Of a DNA stretch of 23,208 nucleotides, positions 10,078-12,992 are shown one piece after another. A program made the translations under genes and the position numbers. The first letter of the stretch is position 1. Each line of letters opens with the position of its first letter. The stretch is from IMG/VR virus record IMGVR_UViG_3300009593_000129, positions 1-23,208 of that record; one strand, written 5' to 3'. The notes beneath the pieces are model-generated. The model made no database searches and was not told where the DNA came from. It saw only the letters and a list, made by a program, of their open reading frames with translations. Source of the DNA: a virus.

Positions 10078-10240
10078 TATCTAGCCAAGCATCAACTTTT
10101 TTTATGTCGTATTTGTTCAAAACTTTTTCTTGTTTTGGGAAACCTATAGCATGTAGCTTATTTTCCTTATCTAAAAAAGACGGATAACTAAGTCCTAGAT
10201 ATAACGCTATTTCTTTTTTATTTTTTAATCGTTGTGTCAT
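10001..10240 (-). CDS. Excisionase / AlpA-like small DNA-binding protein
   Basis: 79 residues. Residues 6-20 (KNKKEIALYLGLSYP) resemble the first helix-turn-helix of Xis/AlpA winged-helix proteins, and residues 30-54 (IGFPKQEKVLNKYDIKKVDAWLDN) resemble the wing followed by the typical 'D-x-x-x-W' helix. It lies between repressor and integrase, overlapping the repressor gene by 23 bases and integrase by 77. This order suits an excisionase or recombination-directionality factor. It could instead be a minor regulator. Confidence 0.7.
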   Translation of the reverse strand: MTQRLKNKKEIALYLGLSYPSFLDKENKLHAIGFPKQEKVLNKYDIKKVDAWLDNDTIRKDSGIRAAHETQLQVLKRNH

Positions 10241-11249
10241 CTGCTATTTGGTTTAAGGATCTATTTTCAAGGTCGTAAGCAAATAGTTCTTCAATAGCAC
10301 AGGGGGAAGTTTGGATCTCGGGTAGTGCGTAAACGAAATCCTCTATTGCTACATTTTCAACTATTATTTGCTGGTCTGCCCAATTTCTAACATTGGCTAC
10401 ATCTAATTCTTTATCTCTATTTTTTTTATTATCTGGTCGTACCTTATCAACTCTTTCATAATAAAAATAAATAGTAACTGTATTCGGAAGGTTACTTTCA
10501 TCTTGGGTTATCCACCCAACACAAATTCCATCTAAATTTAAATCATATTTTTCTGGATCCTTGAGTTCAATAAGACAATAATTACCAAGACAAGTATCGT
10601 ATAATTTTACATTTTTCTGGAGTCTTTTACCCATTTGTCCGTATATAGAATAACAATCATTCCAAGGAGTGTCCCACTTCACTACGACAGGATTTTTAAT
10701 CCTACAAGTTTGAAGCATTATATTATGTCGCCAGATATTATTTCTAGCTCCAATCTTTAAAGAAGTTATTGTTGGATCATTTTGTTTAGCTCTAAATGTT
10801 CCAAGCACAGGTATTGAAGTATAATTTTTTAAATCACTTACTAATGCAGATTCCTCAATAGGAACTGTTGTACTTCCAGAAATTTTATTCCAAACTTTTC
10901 TATATTTTGGATACGCTTTTAATAATTTATTAATGACATTGATTGTTGTTGTGTGTCCACTTCCAGGATTAAAGTGTTCTCTTTGCATATTATATAGAGT
11001 CTTTAAAGCAACCCCAGATTCATCTGCAATCTCATCTAACTTCTTATTTTCATCTAATTGAATAGTATTAACTACCATGAAAAAATCCGAATTGGATTTA
11101 ACTGGTCCACTCGCCTTAAATTCAATGTCGAATATCTTTCTATCGGTAGGACTTAAAGTAGCCATAATACCACTTTCAACCTCAGATGCCTTTAATCTTG
11201 GCAAATCACCCTCCTCCTCTCTGTAGTCATTTATAATCTTATATATCAT
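10218..11249 (-). CDS. CI-like phage repressor with HTH and S24-like C-terminal region
   Basis: 343 residues. A helix-turn-helix lies at about 70-90 (LDEIADESGVALKTLYNM), preceded by an extra N-terminal helical segment. From residue 146 (IPVLGTF) the sequence resembles the start of LexA/S24 repressor C-terminal domains, with later strands ending in VTIYFYY. I do not see the usual Ser/Lys dyad context, so self-cleavage is doubtful. It is the first minus-strand gene, facing the early operon across 254 bases, exactly where a lysogeny repressor is expected. AAGGAC lies about 10 bases before the ATG at 11249. An ATG at residue 29 is an alternative. Confidence 0.72.
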   Translation of the reverse strand: MIYKIINDYREEEGDLPRLKASEVESGIMATLSPTDRKIFDIEFKASGPVKSNSDFFMVVNTIQLDENKKLDEIADESGVALKTLYNMQREHFNPGSGHTTTINVINKLLKAYPKYRKVWNKISGSTTVPIEESALVSDLKNYTSIPVLGTFRAKQNDPTITSLKIGARNNIWRHNIMLQTCRIKNPVVVKWDTPWNDCYSIYGQMGKRLQKNVKLYDTCLGNYCLIELKDPEKYDLNLDGICVGWITQDESNLPNTVTIYFYYERVDKVRPDNKKNRDKELDVANVRNWADQQIIVENVAIEDFVYALPEIQTSPCAIEELFAYDLENRSLNQIADDTTIKK

Positions 11250-11353: not shown

Positions 11354-11381
11354 TTGACTTTACATTGCCTAAGTCTATAAG
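11354..11381 (+). promoter_or_regulatory. Candidate early-operon promoter
   Basis: TTGACT (11354-11359) and TATAAG (11376-11381) are 16 bases apart, with the A-tract block directly upstream. The predicted start is near 11388-11390, so the message would begin at the first arm of the leader inverted repeat. TGCCTAA (11366-11372), in the spacer, is the reverse complement of TTAGGCA at 11284-11290 by the opposing promoter, a possible shared operator. Confidence 0.6.
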
Positions 11382-11389
11382 GGTGAAAT

Positions 11390-11482
11390 GTTTATATGCT
11401 TACATTTTTTTACAATATATAAAGACGAGAGTTTTAGGTAGATTCCGAGCATATAAACCCCAGTTTCTTAAAGCTCTCGTCT
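11390..11482 (+). promoter_or_regulatory. Structured early leader with two interleaved inverted repeats
   Basis: Arm A is GTTTATATGCT (11390-11400) and pairs with AGCATATAAAC (11448-11458), 11 bp. Arm B is AGACGAGAGTTTT (11423-11435) and pairs with AAAGCTCTCGTCT (11470-11482), 13 bp with one G-U. The order A-B-A'-B' means the RNA can form a pseudoknot or choose between two hairpins. The B stem ends 5 bases before the ribosome site AAGGAGG (11488-11494). The A arms also carry GCATATA, a possible operator at DNA level. Confidence 0.6.
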
Positions 11483-11503
11483 ACATTAAGGAGGTAAAAA
11501 ACT

Positions 11504-12067
11504 ATGAACATCAGTAACTTAACAACTGAGGTCTTAGACCAATATAAAGATGATCCAGCTAAAGCAGCGGAGCATTTATCTGATTCTGAGTTTTCAGAAT
11601 TACAATCTTTATTGAAACACGCAAATGATTTCAATAAAGGCCGTAGTGAGATATTGCAAAAAGCAATGTACTCAAAATATGGCGAACAAGCCAATCAAAT
11701 AAGAGAAGCCAAGAATAGTAAAGGACAAGTGTCCTGGAACTCTCTAGAAAACCCAATGCTATCAATCTCTTCTACTAGCCCTATCACTACTAAATGGGAC
11801 AGTAAGTCATTCTGGGCGGTTGTACTTAATAAAGTAAATGGAGCGGACCCAAAGGGCAATGATCTTAAATCTGTCCTAGTGGCTGATTTATTAAAACTAG
11901 GAGTAGACATTAAGATTAATGTTTCAGATAGCAACTGGCTAAAAATTAAAGCAGGAGATACGGAACTACATCAAGCGGCTAAAAAACTATTAGAGCCTTT
12001 TAGAACTGTAGAGCCTAAGAAACCTACTTTTGCAATTAAATTAAAAAAAGAAAAGGAGGAACAGTAA
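11504..12067 (+). CDS. First gene of early operon, unknown function
   Basis: 187 residues, probably soluble. The N-terminal third is helical and acidic. The centre (about 75-115) contains Ser/Thr-rich and tryptophan-bearing segments, and residues 120-150 look like alternating helices and strands (LKSVLVADLLKLGVDIKINVSDSNWLKI). The tail is basic (PKKPTFAIKLKKEKEEQ). I do not recognise the family. A strong AAGGAGG 9 bases before the ATG and the elaborate leader suggest high or controlled expression early in infection. It is followed after 1 base by the Sak4-like gene, so a recombination or DNA-binding accessory role is possible. Confidence 0.75.
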   Translation: MNISNLTTEVLDQYKDDPAKAAEHLSDSEFSELQSLLKHANDFNKGRSEILQKAMYSKYGEQANQIREAKNSKGQVSWNSLENPMLSISSTSPITTKWDSKSFWAVVLNKVNGADPKGNDLKSVLVADLLKLGVDIKINVSDSNWLKIKAGDTELHQAAKKLLEPFRTVEPKKPTFAIKLKKEKEEQ

Positions 12068-12068
12068 T

Positions 12069-12992
12069 ATGAGTGGTTATTCAATTATAACACCAGACCA
12101 GAGAGCAGCTCATTTGGCAACGCAAGGGCCAAAGATTCTGTTAACTGGTTCTTTTGGTGTGGGAAAGACTTACACAATAAGAACTATTCCTAAAGAAATG
12201 AAAACGATTGTACTTGATATTGAGAGTGGTCTTATGACTGTGAATCAATGGATGAGAACCGAAGAGGGATCTCATGTACAAACAATCAGAATTGAAACAT
12301 ACGAAGATTTTGAAGATATAACTGTTCTAGCATGTGGACCAGATAAGTCCGCATCGCCAGATAGTCCTATGTCCCAAGCTCATCACGATCATGTGATGCA
12401 AAAAAGAGCTGCGGCTGGGATTGATGTTGAGTCAGAAAAAAAGATGTTTCAAGAAGCAGATGTATTTTTTATAGATAGTATATCTGATTTAACAAAACTA
12501 GCATTCGCCAAAGCTAAAAGAGAAGAAACAACTAATAATCTTATGCGTGTTTATGGCAACATGGGATCTTGGGTGTTGAGTGCTCTTAGGCATTGGCAAC
12601 ATAATCATACAAAAACAGTCATTTTCTCTTGCAAACTTAGTCAAGAAGAAGATGAAATGGGACGAAAGTCTTGGGTTATTGAAACTGAGGGAAGAAAAAT
12701 TAAAAACGAACTTCCTGGAATAGTAGATGAAGTTATCACTCTTGCTGATATTGAGCAAAAAGGTGAAAACGGAATACCTACTGGCAGTTTTAAAGCCTTT
12801 GTATGCACAAGCCCCAACCCAGGGGGGTATCTGGCGAAAGACAGGTCAGGTCGCTTGGCGGGAATTGAACAGCCGCATTGGGGAAACTTGTTCAAAAAAA
12901 TGCGTGGAAACGGAGCCGAGGAAGTAAGCACTACCAAAACAGCCTCGACTCCTGTTGCCCTTAAACCAATGAAGGAAACAACAAATGGATAA
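12069..12992 (+). CDS. Sak4-like RecA-fold ATPase (phage recombination)
   Basis: 307 residues. Walker A is GSFGVGKT at 27-34, followed by a strand ending in VLDIESG (48-54). Walker B is VFFID at 132-136 within DVFFIDSISDL. This short ATP-binding core without other RecA domains fits the AAA_24/Sak4 group of phage proteins, which act with a single-strand-binding protein in annealing and strand invasion. The C-terminus is a Thr/Pro/Lys-rich tail. The next gene, overlapping by 8 bases, encodes a putative SSB, the expected partner. AGGAGGA precedes the ATG. Confidence 0.8.
   Translation: MSGYSIITPDQRAAHLATQGPKILLTGSFGVGKTYTIRTIPKEMKTIVLDIESGLMTVNQWMRTEEGSHVQTIRIETYEDFEDITVLACGPDKSASPDSPMSQAHHDHVMQKRAAAGIDVESEKKMFQEADVFFIDSISDLTKLAFAKAKREETTNNLMRVYGNMGSWVLSALRHWQHNHTKTVIFSCKLSQEEDEMGRKSWVIETEGRKIKNELPGIVDEVITLADIEQKGENGIPTGSFKAFVCTSPNPGGYLAKDRSGRLAGIEQPHWGNLFKKMRGNGAEEVSTTKTASTPVALKPMKETTNG

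Follow-up and report, generated by a model that had tools for sequence, protein, structure and literature searches.

The locus analysed here raises the question of what is encoded by two inverted repeats that are interleaved immediately upstream of the ribosome site of a phage early operon: whether they act in the DNA or in the RNA and, if in the RNA, how the structure is used. The window, i.e. the whole stretch of 23,208 nucleotides, is a 23.2-kb virus record. Its leftward block encodes a tyrosine integrase (with a Pfam Phage_integrase domain), a small HTH protein and a divergent 343-aa protein, and its rightward early operon encodes, in this order, a 187-aa protein, a Sak4-like AAA_24 recombinase, a 286-aa protein, a ResIII-type helicase, a Cas4-like exonuclease and a primase/helicase. 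We infer from the integrase that the phage is temperate; that it is marine is suggested by its AT-rich relatives of Pelagic type and by the source of one MAG contig.

The early leader and its interleaved helices

The features of the leader and of the genes that follow it are listed below, all on the + strand.

11354-11381, +: early promoter, with TTGACT (11354-11359), a 16-nt spacer and TATAAG (11376-11381)
11385-11408, +: small 5' hairpin P0, GAAATGT (11385-11391) with ACATTTT (11402-11408), arm A lying in its loop
11390-11400, +: arm A, GTTTATATGCT, the core ATGC (11396-11399) being invariant
11423-11438, +: 5' strand of helix B, AGACGAGAGTTTTAGG
11444-11448, +: loop bases TCCGA, invariant in all leaders, unpaired in the model and directly 5' of arm A'
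11448-11458, +: arm A', AGCATATAAAC, in the loop of hairpin B, with GCAT invariant
11461-11465, +: loop bases CAGTT, 3' of arm A', with AGTT invariant (TAGTT in L005)
11467-11482, +: 3' strand of helix B (B'), CTTAAAGCTCTCGTCT
11488-11494, +: Shine-Dalgarno (SD) sequence AAGGAGG, read from the sequence, unpaired in the hairpin-B model
11504-12067, +: first early gene (AUG at 11504), 187 aa, function unassigned, with a distant and weak phrog_2480 match
12069-12992, +: second early gene, Sak4-like AAA_24 recombinase

The sequence-only reading had described two inverted repeats in the order A-B-A'-B' within 93 bases (11390-11482), ending five bases before AAGGAGG, and an inverted-repeat search confirms this arrangement: arms A and A' are complementary over 11 nt (100%), while B (11423-11436) and B' (11469-11482) are complementary over 14 nt (93%), the single non-Watson-Crick position being a U-G. 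When G-U pairs are allowed, helix B extends to 16 pairs (11423-11438 with 11467-11482), two of which are G-U; A11448, the last of the TCCGA bases, may additionally close helix A. None of 5000 dinucleotide shuffles contained two helices of 9 or more Watson-Crick pairs in an interleaved order, and no second such arrangement is found elsewhere in the 23.2-kb window. The two helices have no nucleotides in common and can be formed at once; the leader strand folds with z = -4.2 even when the pseudoknot helix is left out.

A sigma-70-like promoter precedes the two helices, and the ribosome site that serves the first early gene follows them. The promoter sequence predicts a transcription start at about 11387-11389, so that the leader would be the 5' end of the rightward early mRNA; the TTGACT/TATAAG pair is absent from the output of a consensus promoter scanner, and a -35-like hexamer is located 148-151 nt upstream of the AUG in all relatives. 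Three other roles for the leader have been considered and rejected: antisense control from the opposite strand, as the scan has found no promoter-like site on the minus strand between 11150 and 11650; intrinsic termination, as no terminator is found in the leader; and leader-peptide attenuation from the conserved ATGC, as the frames in the six leaders, compared by eye, differ from leader to leader in sequence as well as length, and a clear SD sequence is lacking.

Conservation of both helices in one phage group

Relatives have been collected by protein scans with the products of the first, second and third genes, which yield a small set of phage contigs and, in addition, a 40.5 kb contig from a Flavobacteriales MAG. 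The leaders known all come from this one phage group and comprise six distinct sequences: those of the window, L004 (the same in L002), L005, L006 (the same in L007), L008 (the same in L009 and L010) and L103. The first-gene products that accompany the five other distinct leaders are 83, 60, 44, 39 and 40% identical to that of the window. All contigs that include sequence 5' of the first gene have the element, which invariably precedes that gene (L011 and L195 begin inside the operon), and our RNA model, R2, finds it once in each phage record, with the reservation that the records may be incomplete.

Outside this group, two collection-wide pattern scans have returned chance matches only. The early operon on the MAG contig (L104, PAYK01000017.1, 40 kb), together with its leader, is nearly identical to that of L005, the two leaders differing by one loop base; among 295 genomes from the class to which this MAG belongs, model R2 matches that MAG alone, which could mean either a wrongly assigned bin or a rare phage. 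Among named phages there is no DNA match beyond chance level and no tblastn match to the first gene, and the relatives of Sak4, in AcaML1 and Wolbachia WO, reach at most 38% identity; in AcaML1, different genes precede the Sak4 gene.

Because a whole-leader MAFFT alignment misaligns the variable stems, the base pairs have been counted in two other ways, i.e. in a hand-made composite of the core and in an independent covariance-model alignment. The composite consists of segments of equal length, omits one extra pair that occurs in L005 and L006, and leans towards structure: 96.5% of its cells are paired, both sides have changed in 10 of the 17 pairs, and its covariation is 0.58, compared with 0.25 +/- 0.06 after shuffling (0/500 reaching it) and 0.08-0.17 with the partners slid. 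Four of the eight core pairs of helix A are double-changed and the other four are invariant, 95% of the cells being paired, and double changes occur in 6/9 pairs of helix B. Kinship among the leaders inflates such counts; the slid control retains this kinship and yet stays low.

For the independent check, a covariance model was built from the window and L004 alone; it recovers L005, L103, L008 and L006 at E = 6e-7 to 2e-4, and in the resulting alignment 13 of the 15 pairs of helix B are double-changed, with 92% of cells paired and a covariation of 0.82 against 0.30. Compensatory changes in each helix among homologues, the mark of a covarying structured RNA, have thus been found in A-A' as well as in B-B', as the sequence-only reading had proposed to look for, and, as the two helices are also compatible with each other, its pseudoknot interpretation is supported. 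We regard it as almost certain that the conserved two-helix pseudoknot is a real structured RNA.

The cells of helix B contain nine G-U combinations and one A-C, which argues that it is the sense strand that is kept paired, i.e. RNA rather than DNA. This bears on the reading in which the repeats are DNA-level operators that bind the phage repressor or Cro, or that form cruciforms: they do lie downstream of a promoter and face a divergent gene that is placed like a repressor gene (10218-11249, minus strand), but the G-U excess is strand-specific, the interleaved arms are 32-47 nt apart, unlike operator half-sites, and the distance to the AUG is constant, so that we attach next to no weight to this reading.

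Invariant loop bases, spacing and a putative translational operator

The pairing is not all that is conserved; the unpaired loop bases, the constant spacing to the start codon and the small hairpin around arm A had escaped the sequence-only reading. A 9-nt core of the hairpin-B loop, TCCGAGCAT, and the AGTT that follows are invariant over all leaders; within this core GCAT pairs in helix A, and the model leaves TCCGA and AGTT without partners. The distance from the ATGC of arm A to TCCGAG is 41-44 nt in the leaders, and that from the end of B' to the AUG is 19-21 nt in all of them (21 nt in the window, ACATTAAGGAGGTAAAAAACT), although this constant spacing could partly reflect few indels. The upstream edge of the 30S footprint lies at about -20, and helix B therefore ends at that edge. 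Directly after B' (11483-11487), the motif RCATT(A/T) is conserved in most leaders in addition to the SD sequence, with GCTTTA in L006.

The small hairpin P0 surrounds the ATGC of arm A in five of the six distinct leaders (combined p = 0.002); it is absent in L004 and weak in the window (p = 0.08), where its first bases possibly lie upstream of the true start. Its stems differ by clade: GAAATGT/ACATTTT, ATATGAT/GTCATAT, GTGATT/AATCAC and GGTTCGAG/TTCGAATC, the last being common to L008 and L103. Since the ATGC of arm A tends to occupy the loop of P0, the contact between A and A' is probably an intramolecular kissing loop, for which the P0 stems are suggestive and short of proof.

It had also been suggested that the leader could switch between two hairpins, one of them next to the ribosome site, and that a protein or ligand might bias the choice early in infection. 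In a loop-SD switch, the loop of hairpin B would pair either with arm A, leaving the ribosome site open, or with the SD sequence, closing it. For the window leader this is unsupported, no stable pairing with the ribosome site being found (loop-SD pairing, p = 0.48), and the pairing is likewise not significant in L004 (p = 0.27) and L005 (p = 0.15). It reaches -14.3 kcal/mol in L008 (p = 0.009) and -13.2 kcal/mol in L103 (p = 0.017), and is borderline in L006 (-11.4 kcal/mol, p = 0.07); these energies are comparable to those of the pairing between arm A and the loop. A loop-SD switch is thus possible in the clade of L006, L008 and L103, but sequestration of the SD sequence is not a conserved mechanism, and as an account of the element as a whole the switch is very unlikely. 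In the same three leaders, an ACCUUCC in the hairpin-B loop (L006:189-235, L008:3409-3455, L103:3406-3452) is complementary, over 6-7 bp or more, to their own unusual SD sequence GGAAGG; this complementarity is lacking in the window, L004 and L005.

The SD sequence is free in the hairpin-B model, and regulation is therefore not visible from the structure alone. One way to read this is that the knot is a constitutive 5' structure that involves no regulator and serves either to guard the early mRNA against 5'-dependent decay or to hold the ribosome site open: the element begins at the predicted transcript start and leaves the SD sequence free, and its stems vary freely while the pairing is kept. 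A stability hairpin, however, needs no invariant 9-nt core and AGTT across strongly diverged leaders, and we consider this reading rather unlikely.

The invariant loop bases could alternatively form the pocket of a metabolite riboswitch that acts on translation. In translational pseudoknot riboswitches of the preQ1-II and SAM-II/SAM-V types, interleaved helices lie beside the SD sequence and loop bases are invariant; the leader resembles them in its pseudoknot, its invariant unpaired bases and its adjacency to the SD sequence, and in L006, L008 and L103 the loop is alternatively able to pair with that sequence. It differs from them in that it has no Rfam riboswitch match, occurs only before one phage recombination operon and not before metabolic genes, and has its SD sequence outside the knot, with no conserved sequestration in the clade of the window; a riboswitch is distinctly unlikely.

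The reading that we prefer, with a probability of roughly 45%, is that the leader is a cis-acting translational operator, read by a putative trans-acting factor, that affects how translation of the first gene is initiated. The long hairpin B-B' displays arm A' in its loop, and arm A' pairs there with arm A, which is close to the start of the RNA and in most relatives lies within the loop of the small 5' hairpin; the outcome is probably an intramolecular kissing loop, or else an H-type-like pseudoknot, immediately 5' to the first gene's 30S footprint. The putative factor would read the pseudoknot together with the invariant UCCGA/AGUU and, as at the T4 gene 32 operator, would lower or set translation of the first gene, perhaps also of coupled genes. 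The likeliest candidate would be a protein from this operon that binds nucleic acids: DNA-binding recombination proteins are encoded there and T4 gp32 provides a precedent, which makes it the most economical choice.

A little more tentatively still, the kissing-loop complex at the 5' end of the mRNA, with its invariant UCCGAGCAU/AGUU core, may represent a new class of phage early-leader RNA, a sensor through which expression of the recombination operon would be timed by the phage or by a host factor that is recognised.

Comparison with known leader RNAs

Pseudoknotted translational operators are already known as a kind. In the T4 gp32 operator, a 5' pseudoknot is followed by a less structured ribosome site (PMC535899), and the leader described here shares with the T4 and RB69 gene 32 operators a 5'-leader pseudoknot located upstream of the ribosome site of a phage DNA recombination or replication gene, as well as a fold that is retained while the sequences of relatives diverge (PMC535899). 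The knot of the window ends 5 nt before the SD sequence. The T4 pseudoknot, however, is about 28 nt long and is accompanied by UUAAA/UAAA repeats before and around the ribosome site, whereas the present element spans about 95 nt, with a long hairpin and a probable kissing loop; its invariant core is different, only 19-21 nt separate it from the AUG, no array of such repeats occurs in the 21 nt between B' and the AUG of the window, and the first gene is not known to encode an SSB. On the preferred reading, the leader would work like the T4 gene 32 operator; it is not a member of that class.

A structured RNA at the start of a temperate-phage early transcript is also seen in putL and putR of HK022, and by this likeness the nascent leader could bind RNA polymerase and cause terminator read-through. 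The element does lie just after an early promoter, as putL lies directly downstream of PL (PMC9378689), and comprises about 100 nt with two structured parts. The put sites, however, are about 70 nt long, consist of two stem-loops and occur twice per genome (PMC9378689), whereas the helices are interleaved here and model R2 matches once per record, with none in the leftward operon, although the records may be incomplete. In addition, there are few terminator-like sites downstream on the + strand, and antitermination does not need a constant 19-21 nt to the AUG; put-like antitermination is, on balance, quite improbable.

The pseudoknot of STAXI (RF01728), an RNA or DNA element found near ssb, integrase and other DNA-manipulation genes (PMC2864571), is repeated two or three times and occurs in Enterobacteriales, whereas the present element is single, larger and without an Rfam match. 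At the gathering score, Rfam 15 gives no match over the whole window, permissive Rfam scans of four leaders give matches at chance level only, and a limited literature search has found no published description of the leader element. Our best reading is that it represents a new family of cis-regulatory phage RNAs, which would act when translation is initiated and would probably be bound by a protein.

Few phage leader RNAs are known with a tertiary interaction that is backed by covariation, and in this case one knot precedes the recombination operon in all members found of an uncultured group of marine temperate phages. Loop bases that do not vary and a constant spacing are direct targets in the search for the putative factor that reads the leader, and the present alignment is sufficient to seed a new RNA family.

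As regards the proteins encoded around the leader, the AlphaFold model of the first gene product (pLDDT 81) has no clear relative in the PDB and no convincing structural relative of known function, and structure comparison finds no likeness to any known RNA-binding protein, which counts against the operator reading; the model of the third gene product (286 aa, pLDDT 39) is unusable. The first gene product is specific to this phage group, has conserved KNxxGQVS and KWD motifs and is always encoded immediately before Sak4. The divergent 343-aa gene (10218-11249, minus strand), which is positioned like a phage repressor gene, has no Pfam or PHROG match; its counterparts in L008 and L103 have, by eye, a GVSxKTLYN-like motif in common.
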